A stretch of 64,000 nt of DNA from Actinobacillus arthritidis (GTDB taxonomy: Bacteria; Pseudomonadota; Gammaproteobacteria; Enterobacterales; Pasteurellaceae), in the NCBI RefSeq assembly GCF_029774155.1, contig NZ_CP103833.1, forward strand, positions 434,001 through 498,000. The letters are read 5' to 3'. This document shows positions 1,540 to 15,544 of the stretch, piece after piece; within the stretch, counting starts at the first letter, position 1, and each line of letters begins with the position of its first letter. A program made the translations under genes and the position numbers. The notes under the pieces were generated by a model. The model saw nothing but the letters and a program-made list of their open reading frames with translations, was not told where the DNA came from and did no database searches.

Positions 1540-2639
1540 TTAAAGCCCCGCTTTAAGGCTGGCTTCAATAAATTTGTCTAAATCACCGTCAAGCACCGCT
1601 TGGGTATTGCGGTTTTCAACACCGGTACGTAAATCTTTAATACGTGAATCATCTAATACGTATGAACGAATTTGGTCGCCCCAACCAATGTCTGATTTAC
1701 TTTCTTCCATCGCTTGTTTTTCCGCATTCTTCTTCATCATTTCCATCTCGTATAATTTTGCTTTAAGTCGCTTCATACATTGATCTTTGTTTTGGTGTTG
1801 CGAACGACCGTTCTGACATTGCACCACAATACCGGATGGAATATGGGTAATACGTACCGCCGATTCGGTTTTATTAACGTGCTGACCACCCGCACCGGAC
1901 GCACGGTACACATCAATACGTAAATCCGCTGGATTGATCTCGATATCAATATCGTCATCGATTTCCGGATAAACGAAGGCGGCGAAGAAATGAAGTATGA
2001 CGGCGGTTATTCGAATCAAATGGCGATTTACGCACTAAACGGTGAATACCGGTTTCGGTACGCAACCAGCCGAATGCATATTCGCCGGTAATTTTAACAG
2101 TTGCCGATTTTAAACCGGCAACATCACCGTCCGATACCTCGATTAACTCGGTCTTAAAGCCTTTGCTTTCCGCCCAACGTAAATACATACGCAGTAACAT
2201 TTCCGTCCAGTCTTGCGCTTCGGTACCGCCAGAACCTGCTTGTAAATCGACATAACAATCCGCCGCATCGTGCTGACCGCTAAACATACGTTGAAACTCA
2301 AGTTTGGCTAATTTTTCTTCTAATTCGTTGGCTTCAGCTTGTGCTTCGTTAAACGTATCTTCATCTTCCGCTTCTACAGCTAATTCAATTAAGCCTTCAA
2401 CATCTTCCACACCTTGATCTAGCGTACGAATGGTATTAACCACCATTTCTAACGCAGAGCGTTCTTTTCCTAACGCTTGGGCTTTTTCCGGCGTATTCCA
2501 AATTTCCGGCTGTTCTAATTCGGCATTAACTTCTTCTAAACGCTCGACTTTGGCATCAAAGTCAAAGATACCCCCGAAGTACATTGGTACGCTCGGTTAA
2601 ATCGGCTAATTGAGTTTTAATTGGATTTAGTTCAAACAT
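1540..2639 (-). CDS. prfB: Peptide chain release factor 2 (programmed frameshift, plus a second frame break)
   Basis: RF2 reads UAA and UGA stop codons and triggers peptide release on the ribosome. The gene starts at 2639 ([17 protein letters not shown]), reads 25 codons to CTT and meets an in-frame TGA at 2562-2564. A +1 shift there continues into [11 protein letters not shown], the classic autoregulatory frameshift of prfB. The catalytic GGQ is visible in [16 protein letters not shown] second frame break near 1988-1990 is not part of normal RF2: after RRHTSF the frame must change to reach [12 protein letters not shown]2 is essential, so this net one-base change in a short T run is probably a sequencing error. 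The C-terminus, [10 protein letters not shown], matches known RF2. Confidence 0.95.
2561..2577 (-). promoter_or_regulatory. prfB: prfB programmed +1 frameshift site
   Basis: Read on the minus strand the site is TCGGGGGTATCTTTGAC: an internal Shine-Dalgarno-like GGGGG, a slippery CTT at codon 25 and an in-frame TGA followed by C. When RF2 is scarce, the slow UGA promotes slippage from CUU to UUU and RF2 is made. Confidence 0.95.
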
Positions 2640-2770: not shown

Positions 2771-3739
2771 ATGCCTAAGCGTCCCCAAAATATTCATAAT
2801 ACCCTTTTCCAATTGGAAATCTTGCGTCGTATTCCAAAGGGAAAAGGGCGTTACATTACTGCAAAGCAATTACATACTCAATTAGAAGAACTTGGTTTCG
2901 ATAAAGATATTCGTACCGTACAGAGAACATTAAATATTTTATGTGAACATTTTGATATTGAAAAAGATGATCGTGATATTCAGCATGCTTACCGTTGGAA
3001 AGAACACGCGAAAGGACTGGCAATTTCTACGTTAACTGCTCACGAATCTTTATTATTAATGTTGGCTGAGGAACATTTAAAGAATCTATTACCGGCGAAT
3101 TTAATGAAATCCCTTAAGCCGTTTTTTGATGAAGCCCGTTATCAAAAACAATTTGGTAAAGAAACGCTTGAATATAAATGGTTGGATAAAGTCAGTAGCG
3201 CACCGACCAGCCAGCCATTACTTCCTGCGAAAGTTTCTCCTGATATTTTTGAAGCAGTCAGTTCGGCATTATTTGAAAATAAATTGCTGAATGTTGAATA
3301 TCAAAATCAGCACGGTAAGAAAAATAAAGCACAAGTGATGCCACTTGCTTTGGTTCAACAAGGTGGTGCAATGTATTTGGTTGTGCAATATGAGGGTTTT
3401 GAAAATTATCGTCATCTTGCTTTACATCGTATTAAAAAAGCGACAGTTTCGACTTTCAGTTTTGAATATCCGAAAGATTTCAACCTTAAACACTATCAAG
3501 AACAGGGTAATTTCGGTTTTGGTGACGGTAGTATGGTCAAGCTGACTTTCTCTATTTCTCATTCGGCAGGTTTTCATTTAACTGAAACACCGCTTTCCAA
3601 AGATCAGCAAATTTTGCAAGAAACCGACGCGTTTTACCGAATCCAAGCCACTGTTCCTGACAATGAAATGCTGACTTGGTGGATTCGTAAATTTGGGGAG
3701 GATATTTGGGATATTGAGAGAGAAGTAATTTCAGAATAA
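2771..3739 (+). CDS. WYL-domain transcriptional regulator
   Basis: The 322-residue protein has an N-terminal winged helix-turn-helix of the DeoR type (residues about 8-65, with the recognition-helix region RTVQRTLNIL). It is followed by a WYL domain (about 185-245, GGAMYLVVQYEGFENYRHLAL) and a C-terminal WCX-like extension. WYL proteins bind a ligand, often a nucleotide or nucleic acid, and control DNA repair, phage defence or stress genes. A ribosome site AAAGGAATAAATT precedes the ATG. It is the only dedicated transcription factor near the accessory cluster. It could bind the palindromes found at 4.9-11.4 kb, but none lies in front of this gene, so that link is a guess. Confidence 0.85.
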   Translation: MPKRPQNIHNTLFQLEILRRIPKGKGRYITAKQLHTQLEELGFDKDIRTVQRTLNILCEHFDIEKDDRDIQHAYRWKEHAKGLAISTLTAHESLLLMLAEEHLKNLLPANLMKSLKPFFDEARYQKQFGKETLEYKWLDKVSSAPTSQPLLPAKVSPDIFEAVSSALFENKLLNVEYQNQHGKKNKAQVMPLALVQQGGAMYLVVQYEGFENYRHLALHRIKKATVSTFSFEYPKDFNLKHYQEQGNFGFGDGSMVKLTFSISHSAGFHLTETPLSKDQQILQETDAFYRIQATVPDNEMLTWWIRKFGEDIWDIEREVISE

Positions 3740-4987: not shown

Positions 4988-7042
4988 ATGAGTAGCGAAT
5001 ATAATTTAAATCCACCAACTGTATCCCTTTTTTCTGAAAAACTTTTACTTAAGATTTTATGTGAACATAATGGCTTTAATCGCTTTTTTCGTTCCCATGG
5101 TTGGAGTGATGATACATTAGCTTATGCGTTAGGTTTGAATAATGAATGGGATAATCAAGAAAGTATTTCGAGAGTGAAATTACTTCTACAAAAACGTTAT
5201 CAAGAAATTAAAAAATGCCCTTTCTCCGTGCCGAGTGAGTTAGAAATTGCTTATCAAAATATTAATAAATTAACGCAATATATTGAGTTGAATGAAGTTG
5301 AAAAAGCGATTTTTACGTTAGTTTTTCATTTAAAACATGAAGAGATCATTGAAAATGGATTTAATTTTTTAGGTTCGGTAAATATTACTTCTGCAATTGG
5401 CTGGATCAGTAAATTATGTTCACTAGATAAATCAGCGGTTAAATTAGCGCTTGCAAAAAATCAAAAATTAAAAACCTACGGGTTAATTGAGCAATCTCGT
5501 CATAATACTGATCTTGAAGGTTATTTAGAATGGGGAGACACATTAGATTTTGATGAATTTCTTAATGAACCGTTAACGGAAAAAAGTCTATTAGCTCGTT
5601 GCTTAATTCCGGCGTCAGAGCCACATTTGACATTAGCTGATTTTGAACATATTCAATCCATGCAACAAATTATGCTGAATTATCTCCGACAAGCGGTAGA
5701 TACGCATAAAAAAGGTGTAAATATTTTACTTCACGGCTTACCGGGAACGGGTAAAACAGAATTTGCAACTTTATTAGGTAAGTTACTTCAAATTGATACC
5801 TATATGCTACATTTCTCAGATAGCGATGGCGAAACGTTAAATGCGAAGACTCGTCTGAATAGCTGTGTATTAGCACAAAAATTATTAACGGATCGCAGTG
5901 GTATGATCATTTTTGATGAGATTGAAGATGTGTTTTCAGCTGGCTTATTTGAACGTTCAGTTGCACAATCGAATAAAGCGTGGGTAAACCATTTTTTAGA
6001 AAATAATAATGTACCTATGATTTGGATTTCAAATGATATCAATAGTATGGACAACGCCTATTTACGCCGTTTTGATATTATTTTTGAAATGCCTGATTTA
6101 CCTTATAAGCAGAAAGAACATTTAATTCGTAACTTAGCCGGAGAACAGTTATCTGAACGTTATATTCAGCATTTTGCGAAAATTCCAGCCTTATCTCCGG
6201 CAATATTAGAACGGACATTAAAAGTCGTTACCAGCCTTGAACCTAATAGTCCAGTAGCCTTTGCCGAACAGACCAGAACGCTATTCAATCAAACGTTGCA
6301 GGCACAAGGTTTTAAGAAAATCGAACCGCTTACTGAAAGCCTACAAGCAGACTATTCTTTGGATTTCGTTTCGTGTAAAGCGGATATTTATAAAATCAGT
6401 AAAGGATTAAAACAAACAAAATGCGGACGAATTTGCTGTTATGGTGTACCGGGAACAGGTAAGACTGCATGGGCAAAATGGTTGGCACAAGAGCTTGAAA
6501 TGCACTGCTTGTATTACAAGGATCTGATTTATTGGATATGTATGTAGGAGGAACGGAGCAAAAAATTGCAATGCTTTTGAACGAGCAAGAAATGAGAATA
6601 TGTTACTGATTTTAGATGAGGTGGATAGTTTTCTGTTTACTCGACAAAGCGGACAACGTAGTTGGGAGCATAGCCAAGTCAATGAAATGCTCACACAAAT
6701 TGAAAAATTTGAAGGTTTAATGGTGGTTTCAACCAATTTGCTTGATGAGCTTGATCCGGCAAAGACTTCGCCGTTTCGATTTAAAATTACAGTTTGATTA
6801 CCTCAAACCGCAAACAAAGTGTTGCATTAGCTAAAATTCAAGCGGCTAAATTTGAATTGAATTTTACAGAAAATGTTCAGCAAAAAATTGAACGACTTCC
6901 TATGTTAACACAAGGTGATTTTGCCGCTGTGGCTCGCCGTCATCGTTTTGCTCCTTTTGAAAATGAGAATGAATGGATTGATGCATTGGAAGATGAATGT
7001 CGCCTTAAACAGGGAAAAGTACCTAGAAGAATTGGTTTTTAA
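4988..7042 (+). CDS. Tandem AAA+ ATPase (frame broken four times)
   Basis: With frame restored the protein has about 684 residues. Residues 1-230 match no family I recognise. The first AAA+ module has Walker A GLPGTGKT (about 251-258), Walker B MIIFDEIED (about 306-314) and the arginine-rich segment AYLRRFD. The second has Walker A GVPGTGKT (about 486-493), Walker B LLILDEVDS and LRRFD. This resembles two-ring classical AAA remodelling enzymes. Frame breaks fall in short A runs at about 6518, 6590, 6761-6763 and 6812-6814: two lost and two gained bases, so the net length is unchanged. A ribosome site AAAGGAG precedes the ATG, and two copies of the shared palindrome lie upstream. Substrate unknown; co-regulation suggests it acts with the sirtuins and FtsZ-like proteins. 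Confidence 0.8.
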
Positions 7043-7080
7043 GTTCGTTTATTGCGATTTTTAACAGTTTATTTTTGTTA

Positions 7081-7099
7081 AGCGACATAATTTGTCGCT
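7081..7099. promoter_or_regulatory. Palindromic operator copy 3 (first sirtuin)
   Basis: AGCGACATAATTTGTCGCT is a perfect palindrome apart from its centre: AGCGACA pairs with TGTCGCT across 5 bases. It lies 35 bases before the sirtuin start, next to a TTATAA box. Confidence 0.85.
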
Positions 7100-7134
7100 G
7101 GCTTATAAAAAATGGAAATAAAACAGGAGTAAAA

Positions 7135-7965
7135 ATGAAAAACGATCTTGATTATGCGATTTCTTTGTTAGCCAAAGCAGATGGAATCTTAATTACGGCG
7201 GGTGCTGGAATGAGCACAGATTCAGGGTTACCTGATTTCCGTAGTTCAGGCGGATTATGGAATGCTTATCCGCCCTTAGAAAAATTTCATCTCTCTTTTA
7301 TGCAAATCGCAACGCCAAAAGCATACATTGAACGACCCGATTTATCTTATTGGTTTTGGGGGCATCGTTTGAATCAATATCGCCAAACACCACCACACGA
7401 GGGATATGCGATTTTAAAATCTTGGGCAGAAAAAATGCCGAATGGCTATTTTGTTTATACCAGCAATGTTGATGGTGCTTTTCAAAAGGCAGGCTTTTCA
7501 GATGAACGAGTGTATGAAATTCACGGCACAATTTTTCGTACGCAATGCTTTTATAACTGTAATGATGAAAGTTGGGTAACGGATTTTCAACCAATCACAG
7601 ATGATCAGCAATGCCGAGTATTAAATAAAACACCAATTTGTCCCCATTGTGGGGAAATGGCTCGCCAAAACGTATTAATGTTTGATGATTATTTCTTTTG
7701 TGAGAAACATTATGCACCGAAAGAAATTGCATTACAGAATTGGTTAAAGCAAGTAAATAATTTAGTGGTTGTTGAGCTCGGTGCTGGGAAAACGATTCCT
7801 ACTGTCCGTAGATTTTCAGAAAGCACCGCCAAAGCTAAAAAAGCAGGTTTTATTCGGATTAATAAGTTAGATTCGGGAGTCCCTAAAATGCATTTTTTAA
7901 GTTTAGAAATGAATATTCTCGAAGCATTAAAAACGCTTAATGCAATGTGGGAAGTAAGGCGATAG
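7135..7965 (+). CDS. SIR2-family protein with unusual active-site residues
   Basis: The 276-residue protein is a sirtuin, an NAD-dependent protein deacylase or NAD-consuming enzyme. It has the NAD loop GAGMSTDSGLPDFR (23-36), the catalytic histidine H130 in YEIHGT and four zinc-type cysteines (C138, C142, C169, C172). It departs from the norm in two places: the usual TQN(I/V)D is TSNVD (109-113), and the usual LRPxVVxFGE stretch is ARQNVLMFDD. It is therefore not a housekeeping CobB, which is encoded separately at 9037. The start at 7135 is chosen because AACAGGAGTAAAA precedes it; an upstream frame extension has no ribosome site. A strong terminator follows. Confidence 0.85.
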   Translation: MKNDLDYAISLLAKADGILITAGAGMSTDSGLPDFRSSGGLWNAYPPLEKFHLSFMQIATPKAYIERPDLSYWFWGHRLNQYRQTPPHEGYAILKSWAEKMPNGYFVYTSNVDGAFQKAGFSDERVYEIHGTIFRTQCFYNCNDESWVTDFQPITDDQQCRVLNKTPICPHCGEMARQNVLMFDDYFFCEKHYAPKEIALQNWLKQVNNLVVVELGAGKTIPTVRRFSESTAKAKKAGFIRINKLDSGVPKMHFLSLEMNILEALKTLNAMWEVRR

Positions 7966-8079: not shown

Positions 8080-9033
8080 ATGCAAAAACCAATTTTATAT
8101 ATTGATATGGATAATGTACTGGTCGATTTTAAATCAGGTATTGAACAATTATCTGATGAAATTCGACAACAATATGCAGGTCGATTAGATGAAGTGCCTA
8201 ATATTTTTTCACTCATGAAGCCAATGAATGGTGCAATAGAAGCCGTAGAACACTTAAAAGAACACTACGACATTTACGTATTATCTACTGCTCCGTGGGA
8301 AAACCCTAGTGCGTGGTCGGATAAATTAAATTGGATTAAAACTTATTTTGGTGATGTATTTTATAAACGTTTAATTTTAAGTCATCATAAAAACTTAAAT
8401 GCAGGTGAGTATTTGATTGATGATAGAACGGCAAACGGCGCTGGTTATTTTAAAGGAACGCTTTTGCAGTTCGGTAAAGAATATGCAAATTGGCAAGCTA
8501 TCACAGATTATTTATTATCAGAAGCTAAATTATATAAAAATATCGAGGTTAAGTTAGCTAAAAATTTGGCATTAATGAATCAAATTTGGTCACTACATTC
8601 AAAAGACGAAAAAGTTTTTATTTACCCAAATGGGGAACGTAATTTATCTACGGAACAAAGTAAACGTCCTGAACATTCCGCATTTAATTTATCTACATTT
8701 TTACAAGAGAAAATGGCTTGTTTACGTTATGAAATTCATACTCAAGAGGGAGTGGTTTATTGTTTAATTAATCATAAACGTTATAAAACATTTGAACAGA
8801 TTGTAAATAAGTGGCAAAAAATGTATTCACGAGAATTTATTGAATATGCTAAAGATAATACGTCATTTTTAAATTCATTAAGTTTATTTGCTGATTTTAA
8901 AAAATGTTCCTTTATTCAACTAGAAAAAGTAGAAAAATGTTTTGTGAGTTATCCTACTACTGGGCGAGGACTTGAGTATAAGCGTAAAATAGATGAGGTT
9001 ATTCAAGGTAATCTTAAAAATTTGAAGGAGTAA
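8080..9033 (+). CDS. HAD-superfamily 5'-nucleotidase-like protein with an unknown C-terminal domain
   Basis: Residues 1-150 form a HAD phosphatase of the 5'(3')-deoxyribonucleotidase type. The nucleophile loop is YIDMDNVLVDF (D9 and D11), motif II is STAPW, and the late acidic motif is IDDRTANG. Residues about 165-317 form a second domain that I do not recognise; it is Lys/Phe-rich and includes TFEQIVNKWQKMYSREF and SYPTTGRGLEYKRK. Such nucleotidases remove phosphate from nucleoside monophosphates, so a role in nucleotide or NAD-fragment metabolism next to two sirtuins is plausible but inferred. The ribosome site AAAGGAGCAAAAA decides the start. The cobB gene starts 3 bases after the stop, so the two are surely co-transcribed. 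Confidence 0.75.
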   Translation: MQKPILYIDMDNVLVDFKSGIEQLSDEIRQQYAGRLDEVPNIFSLMKPMNGAIEAVEHLKEHYDIYVLSTAPWENPSAWSDKLNWIKTYFGDVFYKRLILSHHKNLNAGEYLIDDRTANGAGYFKGTLLQFGKEYANWQAITDYLLSEAKLYKNIEVKLAKNLALMNQIWSLHSKDEKVFIYPNGERNLSTEQSKRPEHSAFNLSTFLQEKMACLRYEIHTQEGVVYCLINHKRYKTFEQIVNKWQKMYSREFIEYAKDNTSFLNSLSLFADFKKCSFIQLEKVEKCFVSYPTTGRGLEYKRKIDEVIQGNLKNLKE

Positions 9034-9036
9034 ATA

Positions 9037-9756
9037 ATGAATAAAAATTTACCGAAAGTGGTAGTTCTAACGGGAGCAGGGATTTCAGCGGAATCAGGGA
9101 TTGAAACTTTCCGAGCTAGCACCGGATTATGGGAAAATCATAAAGTAGATGATGTTGCAACACCTGAAGGCTTTATGCGTAATCCTAAATTAGTGCAGCG
9201 TTTTTATAATGCACGTCGGGCAAGGTTATTTGATGCAGATGTGCAACCTAATGCCGCACATTTAGCCTTAGCAGAATTAGAAGAAAAGCTAGGCGATAAT
9301 TTCTTATTAGTTACGCAAAATGTAGATAATTTACACGAACGTGCAGGCAGTAAACGTGTTGTACATATGCACGGAGAACTGCTTAAAGTACGTTGTGTAA
9401 GAAAGGGAACGGTATATGGCTGGCAAGAAGATATTACGGATGAGAGCCTGTGCCAATGCCGCCAGCCTCCTCAAAAATTGCGCCCACATATCGTTTGGTT
9501 TGGGGAAATGCCACTACAAATGAATCGTATTGAAGATGCTTTATGGGAATGTGATTACTTTATCTCGATTGGTACTTCCGGTAATGTTTATCCGGCAACA
9601 GGCTTTGTGAATATTGCGGATCGAGCCGGTGCTGTGACGGTGGAGCTGAATTTAGAACCGAGTGAAAAACATTCCTCATTTCATTATAGCCATCAGGGAA
9701 AAGCAACTGAAATTGTGCCAAAGTTTGTGAGAGAATTATTGGATAAATATGTTTAA
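9037..9756 (+). CDS. cobB: NAD-dependent protein deacylase, CobB-type sirtuin
   Basis: The 239-residue protein follows E. coli CobB closely along its length. It has [14 protein letters not shown] for NAD binding, [12 protein letters not shown], the catalytic histidine in HMHGE (H112) and [12 protein letters not shown]. The YxxR pair (Y57, R60 in FYNARR) is the signature of class III sirtuins that remove succinyl and other acidic acyl groups. It removes acetyl and succinyl groups from lysines, using NAD. It overlaps no operator of its own and is read from the HAD promoter. Its stop is 3 bases from the convergent FtsZ-like gene. Confidence 0.92.
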
Positions 9757-9759
9757 TAT

Positions 9760-10518
9760 TTATTTTACCCAACAATCCAAAATTAGATTAATTTCGTCAA
9801 GTTCAAGATTTAAGCCTGATTGTATATCGATAAGGACAGCATTGACTTGACTGGAATATCTAAATTTAGCCTGTTCGATAAATTTATTTATAATTAATTC
9901 TACTCTATTTTTCCCAGATGCAGATTCGATTATGAAAAATGCGTTATCCGCTCCTCGAAGGATTGAGCAAACATCTTGAATATCAATATTAATTAACCCC
10001 GGGCAGGACATTATATTCGGTAGGTGTGAAAATTGAATTAATCTTTGTTCAAGATGACTTTTCGCTTCTTGCTCAGCTAATTGATAAATTTCACATTCTT
10101 TCTGTAAGTCAAAATGTACTATGCAACTGTGATCAGTATGGAGTTTTTTTGTACGTGCAATAATTTGAGCATTTTCTTGTAAATATTGGGCGACAATCAC
10201 TACAAGCGTGTTATGGCTTGTTTGAATCAATGCTTGAGCAATATTAAAGTCTTCTTCATTATCAATATCAACATAGATCAGTAAGAAATCGACACCTTTG
10301 AGTAATTCTATCGCTTTTTGTTGCTGTTCTGCCGAGGTTACAAGTAATTTATGATGTGCCATCACTTTACTTAAACGCTGTTCATTGTGATCAATGGCAA
10401 TATAAAACACATTTTCAGCTGGCTTTTTTATCATTTTCTGAATAAGTTTGCCGCCTGATTCGTCAATACCGATAAGGCGAATAATTAGATTATTTGGTTC
10501 TTGTATTGGAACAAACAT
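9760..10518 (-). CDS. FtsZ-like protein 2: no T4 loop, T7 loop and C-terminal domain kept
   Basis: The 252-residue protein looks hypothetical at first but aligns by eye with FtsZ. IRLIGIDESGGKLI (about 13-26) corresponds to the FtsZ start IKVIGVGGGGGN. LINIDIQDVCSIL (175-187) matches the T7 synergy loop NxDxxD (N177, D179, D182). ESASGKNRVE and GLNLELDEINLI match later FtsZ segments (GVASGEDRAE and GFDLRLDEFETV). The T4 signature GGGTGTG is missing; GVDFLLIYVDIDNEED stands in its place. It could therefore complete a GTPase site in a partner but probably cannot bind GTP normally. It lies 17 bases downstream of FtsZ-like protein 1, in one operon. Confidence 0.7.
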   Translation of the reverse strand: MFVPIQEPNNLIIRLIGIDESGGKLIQKMIKKPAENVFYIAIDHNEQRLSKVMAHHKLLVTSAEQQQKAIELLKGVDFLLIYVDIDNEEDFNIAQALIQTSHNTLVVIVAQYLQENAQIIARTKKLHTDHSCIVHFDLQKECEIYQLAEQEAKSHLEQRLIQFSHLPNIMSCPGLINIDIQDVCSILRGADNAFFIIESASGKNRVELIINKFIEQAKFRYSSQVNAVLIDIQSGLNLELDEINLILDCWVK

Positions 10519-10535
10519 ATTTCCTCCAGGGTAAG

Positions 10536-11324
10536 TTATGATTTATAGATACTGATGTGAAACGGGCGTTTAGCAGTAAGTCCTAGATAATGCTCAATAC
10601 GTTGAATAATGAGATCATTTTGTGTTTGAATTGCACTTTCCATTGTGATTGTGTCTGCCAGCCTTAATAAATCATTGTTATTAAACAGCTCACAAATATC
10701 ACAAGCGGTTGCTAATTTCTGTTTGGCGAAATAGACCAATCGGCTACGTTTATTACCCTCAAAATAAAAAGGCGTGACGATAAATGCCAAAACTTGACAG
10801 CCCTATGCTTTGGCCAAACGAGCTATTTCCGGAGCAATACCCGTACCATTTCCTCCGCCTAAACCACAAAATAAAACGATAATATCTTGTTCGGTGACTG
10901 CCTCAATAAGTTGCGGTGTACTTATCTTCACAGATTCTTGAGCAAGTAATGGATCAGGTCCACAACCAATGGGAGAATTGCCTATATGTGGCGTATTAAA
11001 CGATGATTTACGCAGAGAAATCAGATTGGTATTGATTAATAGATAATCCTGTTCGGGTAAAACATTTGCCACTTCCATTAAGATATTTTGTCCGGCACTG
11101 CCAATACCGATAAAGCGAATCTTACTTTCAGGCGTAACGGTAATACGATTATTTCTCGGTGTAATTAAGGAGGGTTTTAGGGTGATGATCGGATAACGTT
11201 TTCTATATTTTTTAGGCAATATTGTCACTTTGGGCGATTGACTAGATTTAGGTTGTGAAACGGTTTTAGTTTGTGAGTTTTTTTGCTGAAAACTTTTAAA
11301 GAAAGAACAAATTTTACGAAACAT
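10536..11324 (-). CDS. FtsZ-like protein 1: T4 loop kept, ends before T7 (in-frame amber codon)
   Basis: After a basic, low-complexity N-terminal tail (1-65) come IRFIGIGSAGQNILMEV (69-85, T1-like) and GLGGGNGTGIAPEI (about 154-167). The latter is a variant of the tubulin/FtsZ signature GGGTGTG. Further on, IVTPFYFEGNKRSRL matches the FtsZ stretch TKPFNFEGKKR. The frame contains TAG at 10803-10805 (codon 174) between ARLAKA and GCQVLAF, with no frame change, so one base substitution accounts for it. Readthrough gives 262 residues. The protein ends after the H7-like helix, before any T7 loop. The operator palindrome lies 59 bases upstream. Confidence 0.75.
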
Positions 11325-11496: not shown

Positions 11497-12540
11497 ATGG
11501 CGGAAGAACCGATTCGTTTGACGCAATACAGTCACGGTGCCGGTTGAGGCTGTAAAATTTCTCCTAAGGTGTTAGGGACTATTTTACAAAGTCAGCTGGA
11601 CAAATTTGTTGATCCGAATTTATTAGTGGGTAATGAGACCGCCGATGATGCCGCTGTTTATGATATCGGTAATGGCATTGGTATTATCAGTACCACAGAC
11701 TTCTTTATGCCGATTGTGGATGATCCGTTCGATTTCGGGCGTATTGCGGCGACAAATGCGTTAAGTGATGTATTTGCGATGGGTGGTAAGCCGATTATGG
11801 CGATTGCCATTTTAGGTTTCCCGGTAAACAAGTTACCGGCGGAAGTGGCCCAAAAAATTGTGGAAGGTGGGCGTTTTGCTTGTCAGCAAGCTGGGATTGC
11901 CTTAGCCGGCGGTCATTCGATTGATTCGCCTGAGCCGATTTTTGGGCTGGCAGTAACCGGTATGGTTAGCACTGAACAAGTGAAAAAGAATGCTTCGGCA
12001 GAAGTCGGTTGTGAACTGTTTTTGACTAAACCGCTCGGTATCGGTGTACTGACAACTGCTGAGAAAAAAGGTTTATTAAAAGCGGAACATCAGAATCTTG
12101 CACGTGATGTGATGTGTCAGATTAATTTGATTGGCGCAAAATTTTCACAATTAGCAGAGGTGACGGCAATGACGGATGTAACCGGTTTCGGCTTATTAGG
12201 GCATTTGAGTGAAATTTGCCAAGGCTCTAATGTACGTGCCGAAGTGAATTTTGCTGAAATCCATACGCTTGATGGTGTGAAAGAGTATATCGCTCAAGGT
12301 GCAGTACCGGGTGGAACAAATCGTAACTTTGATAGTTATGGGCATCTGATTTCAGCCATGATCGATGAGCAAAAGGCGATTTTGTGTGATCCGCAAACAT
12401 CAGGCGGTTTATTAATTGCAGTACGTCCGCAAGCGGTTGAAAAGGTACAACAAATTGCCAAACAAGCCAATGTGTCTTTATTTAGGGTGGGGCGTTTACT
12501 TGAAGCGAACGATGCGAAGCCGTTAATTGAGGTCATTTAA
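11497..12540 (+). CDS. selD: Selenophosphate synthetase, a selenoprotein with Sec at residue 17
   Basis: SelD makes selenophosphate from selenide and ATP, the selenium donor for selenocysteine and selenouridine. The gene starts at 11497 after an ACGAGG ribosome site. The in-frame TGA at 11545-11547 lies in SHGAG-TGA-GCK, exactly the active-site Cys/Sec position, followed by the catalytic lysine. UGA therefore encodes selenocysteine, as known for Haemophilus SelD; translating from the next start would remove the active site. The product has 347 residues. Later motifs include [16 protein letters not shown] and [10 protein letters not shown] hairpin suited to SelB follows the UGA. The nudJ gene follows closely. 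Confidence 0.95.
11551..11588 (+). promoter_or_regulatory. selD: Bacterial SECIS hairpin
   Basis: TGTAAAAT (11551-11558) pairs with ATTTTACA (11581-11588). Inside, TCCTAA (11562-11567) pairs with TTAGGGA (11572-11578) with one bulged G, leaving the apical loop GGTG. The element starts 3 bases after the UGA and has the apical G residues that SelB requires. Confidence 0.8.
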
Positions 12541-14788: not shown

Positions 14789-15544
14789 TTATTTTTGTGG
14801 AGCTGGAGCTGGAGCTGGAGCTGGAGCTGGAGCTGGAGCTGGAGCTGGAGCTGGAGCTGGAGCTGGAGCTGGAGCTGGAGCTGGAGCTGGAGCTGGAGCT
14901 GGAGCTGGAGCTGGAGCTGGAGCTGGAGCTGGAGCTGGAGCTGGAGCTGGAGCTGGAGCTGGAGCTGGAGCTGGAGCTGGAGCTGGAGCTGGGCCATATT
15001 TAGCGGTTAATTCAGCTTCAATTTTTTGACCTTCTGTTGCAATCTTATCTAATTGAGCTTGTAATTCACTAAATGCTTTATGGGCTTCAGGAGTTGGATT
15101 TTTTGCAAGTTTATCATTTTCAGCAATCATTTTTGCACCTAATGCCATTGCTTCAAGTGCTTTATCTTTTAGTGCATTTACTTGTACATCCTTGATATCT
15201 AAAGTCGCGGCACTTTTTTGAATATTCTCAATTTGAGCAAGCACGGCTTTATTCATTGTATCTTGAATAAGTGCTGCATCTTTTGCTTTTTCGCCTAATT
15301 TTTCGATTTCTGCATTAATTGCATCACCGATAGATTTTTCTTGCACTTGTTGCCATTCTTGGAATTTTTTGTAATCTTCCGCACCGGTATCTACGACTTT
15401 TTCAACCGGTTTTGTCGCTTCCGATTGTGTTTGAGTTGCTGGGGTTTGTGCCGCCGGTTCAGCAGACTTATTAGCCGGCTTATCACAAGCGGTTAAAAAC
15501 AAAGCAAATAATGCTGTGGCACTAATTTTTGTGAATTTTGTCAT
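14789..15544 (-). CDS. Lipoprotein with a long C-terminal Pro-Ala repeat, paralogue 2
   Basis: The 251-residue precursor has a signal ending LFLTAC (lipobox). A linker rich in Ala, Pro, Thr and Gln follows, then a helical domain starting DYKKFQEWQQVQEKS that is shared with paralogue 3. The last 67 residues are 33 prolines alternating with 32 alanines, then QK. The repeat is encoded by a perfect 6-bp tandem array. Such Pro-Ala rods are stiff spacers that can span the periplasm or hold a domain away from the membrane. Each repeat unit is 6 bp, so gain or loss of units changes rod length but never the frame. Cell-envelope location is clear; function is unknown. Confidence 0.75.
   Translation of the reverse strand: MTKFTKISATALFALFLTACDKPANKSAEPAAQTPATQTQSEATKPVEKVVDTGAEDYKKFQEWQQVQEKSIGDAINAEIEKLGEKAKDAALIQDTMNKAVLAQIENIQKSAATLDIKDVQVNALKDKALEAMALGAKMIAENDKLAKNPTPEAHKAFSELQAQLDKIATEGQKIEAELTAKYGPAPAPAPAPAPAPAPAPAPAPAPAPAPAPAPAPAPAPAPAPAPAPAPAPAPAPAPAPAPAPAPAPQK
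14798..14992. repeat. Hexanucleotide tandem repeat, about 32.5 units
   Basis: 195 bases of perfect TGGAGC repeats (GCTCCA on the coding strand) encode the Pro-Ala rod. Purity and length imply frequent slippage. Confidence 0.97.

Follow-up and report, generated by a model that had tools for sequence, protein, structure and literature searches.

Can the active site of FtsZ be divided between two different proteins, and what would such proteins do in a cell that also carries ordinary FtsZ? The question is raised by a 64,000-nucleotide stretch of Actinobacillus arthritidis DNA (contig NZ_CP103833.1, positions 434,001 to 498,000; hereafter the window, to which coordinates refer unless a fetched stretch, L001 and the like, is named), in which two adjacent minus-strand frames with similarity to FtsZ, FtsZ2 (9760-10518, 252 residues) and FtsZ1 (10536-11324), lie 17 bases apart. 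Judged by sequence, FtsZ2 and its relatives in other Pasteurellaceae are FtsZ paralogues that have given up nucleotide binding (no T3 or T4) and have never lost the T7 aspartate pair in the lineages found, a pattern that would fit proteins acting on the GTP of another FtsZ-fold subunit.

An earlier note on this DNA had described FtsZ1 as carrying a T1-like loop and a T4 signature, FtsZ2 as lacking T4 and keeping T7 together with segments of the C-terminal domain, and the pair as same-strand neighbours distinct from the cell-division FtsZ. That observation is confirmed in part. The FtsZ1 frame contains the T1-like IRFIGIGSAGQN and the T4 sequence GLGGGNGTG (signature GGGNGTG, 10839-10859, minus strand), while FtsZ2 contains NIDIQD (N177, D179 and D182; 9973-9990, minus strand, from sequence and alignment) and GLNLELDEINLI, and is without T4 both here and in intact relatives. 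The profile TIGR00065 matches FtsZ1 of the window in two pieces (1.1e-13 and 5.4e-6), and FtsZ2 of the window matches the FtsZ model at 1.6e-11, all far beyond chance. An ordinary ftsZ lies at a separate place in the same genome (G000), and the TIGR00065 scores of FtsZ1 and FtsZ2 from intact relatives, 102.1 and 67.3 bits, are far under the equivalog cut-off of 295.2. The nearest named protein match of FtsZ2 comes from Actinobacillus pleuropneumoniae serovar 11 (89% identity), and a search of 5.8 billion proteins, which depends on shared 5-residue words, returned two matches each for FtsZ2 and FtsZ1, the window itself accounting for one of those for FtsZ1. Pfam matches to R-HINP1I and TrkA_N fell under the cut-off and were disregarded.

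Neither FtsZ1 nor FtsZ2 is made whole from the window copy. An in-frame TAG after residue 173 divides FtsZ1 into an open N-terminal piece (10803-11324, minus strand; 173 residues plus the stop, with an N-terminal extension, T1, T2, a T3-like segment and T4) and a C-terminal piece (10536-10802, minus strand; T5 as FEGNKR, T6 and H7, placed by alignment of intact relatives) that stops short of T7, and the Pfam Tubulin match (1.0e-17) runs across this single TAG. Comparison with two relatives of the genus (G004 and G006) revealed three open genes from cobB to selD, in window orientation PP2C (246 residues, plus strand), FtsZ2 (284 or 286 residues, minus strand) and FtsZ1 (262 residues, minus strand), the last consisting of the FtsZ GTPase domain only and ending before T7. 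The statement that FtsZ1 ends after H7 and before T7 thus holds for the intact proteins and fails here, where the frame is not open; a natural end at the stop was ruled out, as the relatives reach 262 residues and still end before T7. Compared with G004, G005 and G006, in which FtsZ2 has 284-286 residues and the PP2C gene is whole between cobB and FtsZ2 in all three, the window lacks 0.87-0.88 kb, and the two flanking matches overlap by 3 bases at the junction (9775-9777). This deletion took nearly all of the PP2C gene and the final native part of FtsZ2, leaving a remnant of the convergent PP2C start (9749-9777, plus strand). A different lesion was found in G005, which keeps PP2C and FtsZ2 and has lost about 620 bases of FtsZ1.

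Two further genes of the window's genome, ftsZ (L001 816-2034, TIGR00065 positions 14-246 and 247-334) and prfB (window 1540-2584, TIGR00020 positions 14-207 and 207-353), are each split across two frames. Both are normally essential, and their state points to indel errors in the G000 assembly, so that the point stop in FtsZ1 may also be an assembly error; the deletion of about 0.9 kb is unlikely to be one. Four of the nine genomes in our genus set carry the locus (G000, G004, G005 and G006). Besides matches of 30-53 bases, the 4.5 kb query found only one long match in each of the other five, starting near selD (at query position 3338 or later). Ratios of nonsynonymous to synonymous substitution rates (dN/dS) were 0.13 for FtsZ1 (G004-G006), 0.21-0.51 for FtsZ2 (imprecise, given low dS), 0.13-0.19 for PP2C and 0.03-0.06 for selD, indicating that FtsZ1, FtsZ2 and PP2C were under constraint.

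In the intact relatives, profiles and alignment give FtsZ1 without T7 and FtsZ_C, and FtsZ2 without T3 and T4 but with T7 and FtsZ_C; FtsZ1 ends at TIGR00065 position 204 and the strong FtsZ2 region starts at 202. Profile matches to solved FtsZ, together with Foldseek and VIA searches with predicted structures, returned an FtsZ-type fold for both proteins, as the earlier note had anticipated, with a weak model for FtsZ2. The complementarity is real: one protein carries the half that binds GTP, and the other the half that bears T7. In FtsZ, the T7 aspartates of one subunit work on the GTP bound by the next, and the C-terminal domain helps to build the lower face of the protofilament subunit. 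Since FtsZ1 is without the C-terminal domain and FtsZ2 without the GTP face, at most one good interface would be expected per FtsZ1-FtsZ2 pair.

We ran an FtsZ2 profile (A2) and an FtsZ1 profile (A3) over 140 Pasteurellaceae genomes; counts of FtsZ1 relatives are among the matches listed, and second matches in G014, G023 and G086 (the last a stretch with ordinary ftsZ only) were left out of the counts. FtsZ2-like proteins are present in 11 genomes, ten of them found with A2 besides ordinary FtsZ (G000, G004, G005, G006, G055, G068, G085, G125, G033 and G040) and the eleventh, G029, only through a local scan of its fetched PP2C locus, as a weak match (4.1e-7). These make up eight lineages: Actinobacillus, G055, G068, G085, G125, G033, G040 and G029. 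The intact FtsZ1-FtsZ2 pair occurs in two of the 140 genomes (G004 and G006), and A3 gave ordinary FtsZ only in six of the eight lineages (G055, G068, G085, G125, G040 and G029). G033 carries an FtsZ1-like gene elsewhere in its genome as a broken remnant whose N-terminus is similar to that of FtsZ1, and G049, in which the FtsZ2 profile found no FtsZ2-like match, has a GTPase-only FtsZ1 relative with an intact GGGTGTG that ends before T7 and adjoins a PDDEXK_4 gene. The expectation that the two genes would always be found together therefore failed: G005 keeps FtsZ2 with FtsZ1 truncated, G049 has an FtsZ1-like protein alone, and the pair is intact in 2 of the 11 genomes with FtsZ2-like proteins.

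Looser relatives of the GTPase half were also seen. In G022, G024, G026 and G028, ordinary ftsZ is immediately preceded by a GTPase-only copy of about 200 residues with a degenerate T4. Relatives of this kind, in four genomes of one Pasteurellaceae genus and with no T7, lie at L212 3440-4051, L213 3131-3781, L214 2946-3557 and L215 3014-3627, the last being split between frames. G115 (L211 5664-6659) carries a full-length FtsZ paralogue, degenerate in both T4 and T7, beside a PDDEXK-type gene.

Two FtsZ2-like proteins are joined to parts of FtsK. A 724-residue frame in L207 (G125) combines FtsK_SpoIIIE (2.5e-67), FtsK_gamma (8.7e-17) and FtsZ_C (6.9e-5, under the Pfam cut-off) and matches TIGR00065 at 1.3e-5, while in L206 (G085) FtsK_gamma (1.3e-6) is joined to FtsZ_C (2.3e-5), both slightly under the cut-off, with a TIGR00065 match of 3.4e-8.

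Beyond the family, a profile (A7) applied at E<=1e-15, a threshold that would miss weaker relatives, to 394 genomes of the order, a set that includes some Pasteurellaceae, matched 148; among the matches listed, frames shorter than 381 residues came only from G000 and G068, the rest being at least 381 residues long, as in ordinary FtsZ. A PP2C-guided search outside Pasteurellaceae (best 80 loci; FtsZ profiles on L075-L184) turned up no FtsZ-like gene nearby at E<=0.001, and two weaker matches (0.022 in L137 and 0.044 in L161) coincide with the PP2C match itself. A viral or plasmid origin was considered and set aside: A2 and A3 scans of viral contigs found no relatives, the pattern scans being insensitive (one ordinary FtsZ retrieved nothing, a 5-row FtsZ alignment two loci), and neither did tblastn in phages and plasmids, for which the G005 copy of FtsZ2 was the only query. 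In a phylogeny the FtsZ2-like clade had a support of 0.99 and FtsZ1 with G049 0.95; its long branches led us not to rely on it. Among the papers listed in our searches of an open-licence collection, we found none that describes this family.

The key result on conservation concerns what these divergent proteins have kept. Across the eight lineages, whose median pairwise identity is 18% (13-56%), exactly two columns are invariant in 8/8, D179 and D182 of the T7 loop, in three MAFFT modes with no ordinary FtsZ row. In a joint alignment 87 columns are invariant across 13 ordinary FtsZ rows, and only the T7 pair is kept in 8/8 FtsZ2-like lineages, the next best column being a glycine kept in 7/8. 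Counted with one Actinobacillus FtsZ2 row for the genus and the window row excluded, FtsZ invariants are retained on average in 0.93 of eight lineages in the N-domain and H7 and in 2.94 of eight in the T7/C-domain. None of the 11 FtsZ2-like sequences has the T4 signature, and G040 and G029 are missing the whole GTPase half.

The reading we favour, to which we give a probability of about 40%, is that FtsZ2-like proteins, as FtsZ paralogues blind to nucleotide, sit on the GTP face of a different FtsZ-fold subunit (in most cases host FtsZ) and cap it or activate its GTPase, with FtsZ1 as a specialised partner. As their own GTP site is lost while the aspartates that work on the GTP of a neighbour are kept, action in trans would be the simplest account: the T7/C-domain face would dock onto another FtsZ-fold protein at its GTP-loaded face and supply the aspartates. 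An FtsZ2-like protein, having no working upper face of its own, would then serve as a cap and GTPase activator and not as a polymer subunit. The likeliest partner in most genomes would be the cell's own FtsZ, since most FtsZ2-like genomes have ordinary FtsZ and no FtsZ1 was found in them, and the outcome would be a local block or disassembly of FtsZ filaments. Fusion to FtsK or FtsK-gamma may steer this action to DNA or to the septum, and the Actinobacillus FtsZ1 could be a GTP-bound partner that holds or times FtsZ2, its amphipathic N-terminus perhaps binding the membrane. A fuller version is also possible, though we hold it more tentatively: a nucleotide-blind, FtsZ-derived family whose members cap FtsZ filaments and activate their GTPase in trans, in which the T7 aspartate pair are the only irreplaceable residues, which has been recruited in some lineages by fusion to an FtsK motor or its gamma (DNA-reading) domain, which often resides in a Pasteurellaceae phosphatase/sirtuin island, and which in Actinobacillus leaves the halves of one FtsZ active site on two proteins.

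The PP2C, WYL and Sir2 genes of that island would provide the regulatory setting. In the window, hallmark genes on the plus strand encode a WYL-type regulator (2771-3739, PF13280 6.9e-12), an AAA ATPase (4988-6547, for this open frame only, PF00004 4.8e-17), a Sir2-family protein (7075-7965, searched over 7135-7965, PF02146 4.5e-21), an NT5C-type 5' nucleotidase (8080-9033, PF06941 2.7e-12) and a CobB-type sirtuin (9037-9756, PF02146 7.5e-51). The other flank is the conserved selD (11569-12540, plus strand, NF002098 7.7e-158), matched in 9/9 genus genomes. The mapping of hallmark genes, which covered 42 fetched stretches plus the window's first 16 kb, showed a variable set that comprises the WYL regulator, RhuM/Fic, AAA ATPase, Sir2, FtsK_gamma proteins, NT5C, CobB, PP2C, GmrSD-type and PDDEXK genes. 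FtsZ2-like genes lie near island genes in five of the eight lineages (Actinobacillus, G055, G040, G029 and, with a WYL gene only, G068). PP2C orthologues occur in 37 of the 140 Pasteurellaceae genomes, and 6 of the 26 mapped PP2C stretches contain an FtsZ-like gene, which makes the FtsZ genes optional components of the island; several loci had been chosen for their PP2C gene, a choice that makes PP2C more likely to turn up beside FtsZ2. The PP2C motifs NQDA, DG, CSDGL/CTDGL and DD are conserved in nine aligned sequences, the PF07228 match (9.9e-7) is over the cut-off, and the nearest named match of a relative's PP2C is from A. suis (89%). In the Actinobacillus PP2Cs (L004 592-1332 and L005 2403-3143) one segment reads GNSRAY, and in the other seven aligned Pasteurellaceae PP2Cs GDSRAY. 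Stand-alone FtsK_gamma proteins, one with leucine-rich repeats, lie within the Sir2/PP2C island at L077 6714-7529 and L088 6586-6915. Elsewhere in the window, the frame at 14789-15544 ends in a long Ala-Pro dipeptide repeat, with spurious long frames in its other reading frames.

Several results weigh against the cap/activator reading. The FtsZ2 profiles include T7 and would under-detect members without it, and most lineages were found with such profiles; this bias weakens, without removing, the contrast between the T7 pair and the rest of the C-domain. The structure models of both proteins were built on alignments containing FtsZ rows, and that of FtsZ2 has a mean predicted local distance difference test score (pLDDT) of 58, mostly 30-55 from residue 160 onward, and Foldseek TM-scores of 0.35-0.45. 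Three of the eight lineages (G085, G125 and G033; L206, L207 and L208) have no island hallmark gene in the mapped stretches besides the FtsK_gamma portion of the L207 fusion, and G068 has a WYL gene only; L206 carries another WYL protein. For the related G033 remnant, the amphipathic score falls short of significance (10.7% of shuffles). As FtsZ2 has the highest dN/dS of the three genes, with low dS, as the module is broken in two of the four genus genomes that carry it, and as the G068 frame has a stop inside the profile match, selection to keep the module does not seem strong. Lastly, conservation of the T7 face would fit a decoy equally well.

In that alternative, FtsZ2-like proteins would be FtsZ decoys or sensors in an immune-type island, showing the T7 (synergy-loop) face so that phage FtsZ inhibitors bind and an island effector is released, with FtsZ1-like proteins showing the other face. 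GmrSD-type, PDDEXK, Sir2, AAA and RhuM/Fic genes with WYL regulators would suit such an island, one neighbour in L082 matches PADLOC HEC-06 at 1.2e-45, and the L207 fusion adjoins a phage integrase and AlpA. Also in its favour, phage T7 Gp0.4 is modelled on the synergy (T7) loop surface of FtsZ, the side also bound by SulA and MciZ, and CapRel-Ebc senses, and is activated by, the FtsZ-Gp0.4 complex (PMC13423816). A decoy would, however, have no need to keep the catalytic pair as its sole invariants at 18% identity, neither FtsZ1 nor FtsZ2 matches a PADLOC model at E 0.01, and the phage and viral collections, in searches that were insensitive, gave no relative. We consider the decoy doubtful, although it ranks close behind the cap/activator reading.

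It is improbable that these are simply decaying paralogues, functionless everywhere at present. Broken copies in the window genome and G005, the G033 remnant, the stop within the G068 match and the absence of the module from five of the nine genus genomes would all be expected of decay, but dN/dS of 0.13-0.51, two catalytic residues invariant across eight lineages and the existence of domain fusions would not. Less probable again is the earlier note's proposal that the pair forms an obligate two-subunit polymer, with FtsZ1 binding GTP and FtsZ2 setting off its hydrolysis. The spacing of the two genes and the reciprocal loss of T7 and T4 had suggested it, and the GTP face of FtsZ1 and T7 face of FtsZ2 could indeed make one canonical site. 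With one whole face missing from each protein, the second interface of a repeating FtsZ1-FtsZ2 polymer would be absent, which makes such a polymer less likely; obligate pairing is not supported, given the scarcity of the intact pair, its breakage in the window genome, the six of eight lineages without an FtsZ1-like match (the seventh, G033, having a broken remnant) and the GTPase-only relative that G049 carries without FtsZ2. Very unlikely is a split FtsZ, in which the N-domain of FtsZ1 and the C-domain of FtsZ2 form one composite subunit that enters ordinary filaments or poisons them, for although the two proteins meet at TIGR00065 positions 204 and 202, FtsZ2 has its own confidently predicted N-domain (block pLDDT 75-92, residues 11-100) and those six lineages have no FtsZ1-like match to complete it.

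If the cap/activator reading is right, evolution has parted onto different proteins an FtsZ active site that is normally shared by identical subunits, and a cap or GTPase activator of FtsZ has thereby arisen in nature; such single-sided subunits could be used to probe at which end filaments are controlled and what sets off hydrolysis. The fusions physically link an FtsK-type DNA motor to the FtsZ fold. Were the decoy right instead, the locus would hold an immune sensor shaped after the very FtsZ surface targeted by phage inhibitors.

How, then, do these proteins compare with known systems? They share with the cell-division FtsZ (TIGR00065) the fold, motifs T1-T6 in FtsZ1, and T7 and FtsZ_C in FtsZ2, but FtsZ holds the T4 GTPase domain and the T7 C-terminal domain in one chain, whereas neither FtsZ1 nor FtsZ2 has both, and, judged by length only, neither has the C-terminal tail for FtsA and ZipA. 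FtsZl1 and FtsZl2 are divergent FtsZ-like families found beside ordinary FtsZ (Makarova and Koonin 2010, PMC2875224). FtsZl1 has no recognisable sequence from T6-H7 onward, and most of its members have a coiled coil plus a helical domain and lie in vWA/kinase/OmpA operons, while FtsZl2 keeps T1, T4, T6 and T7, has a C-terminal region of about 300 residues and lacks conserved neighbours (PMC2875224). FtsZ1 and FtsZ2 resemble both families in being divergent proteins alongside ordinary FtsZ, with the missing later part of FtsZl1 as a further likeness, but they differ from both in size, motifs and neighbours, here a PP2C/Sir2/WYL setting: at 262 and 284-286 residues their best match to the FtsZl1 domain (Tubulin_2) is 0.23, under the cut-off, and they have neither the full T1, T4, T6 and T7 set nor room for the extra region of FtsZl2. 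The GTPase domain of FtsZ1 also matches the plasmid tubulins TubZ (2.1e-6) and RepX (0.0018), but it matches FtsZ far better (4.6e-21), and FtsZ2, the only query of the plasmid search, had no match there. The subunits of tubulin-type polymers built from two proteins (BtubA/B, alpha/beta-like) all bind nucleotide and possess both longitudinal faces, while here FtsZ2 is without T3 and T4 and FtsZ1 without T7 and the C-domain. SulA, MciZ and phage Gp0.4 are, to our knowledge, not FtsZ relatives, whereas the FtsZ2-like proteins derive from FtsZ itself and would target the opposite face, that of GTP. What they would have in common with these inhibitors, which bind near the T7 loop, is the proposed means of stopping FtsZ assembly, through the longitudinal interface (PMC13423816, PMC5624674).
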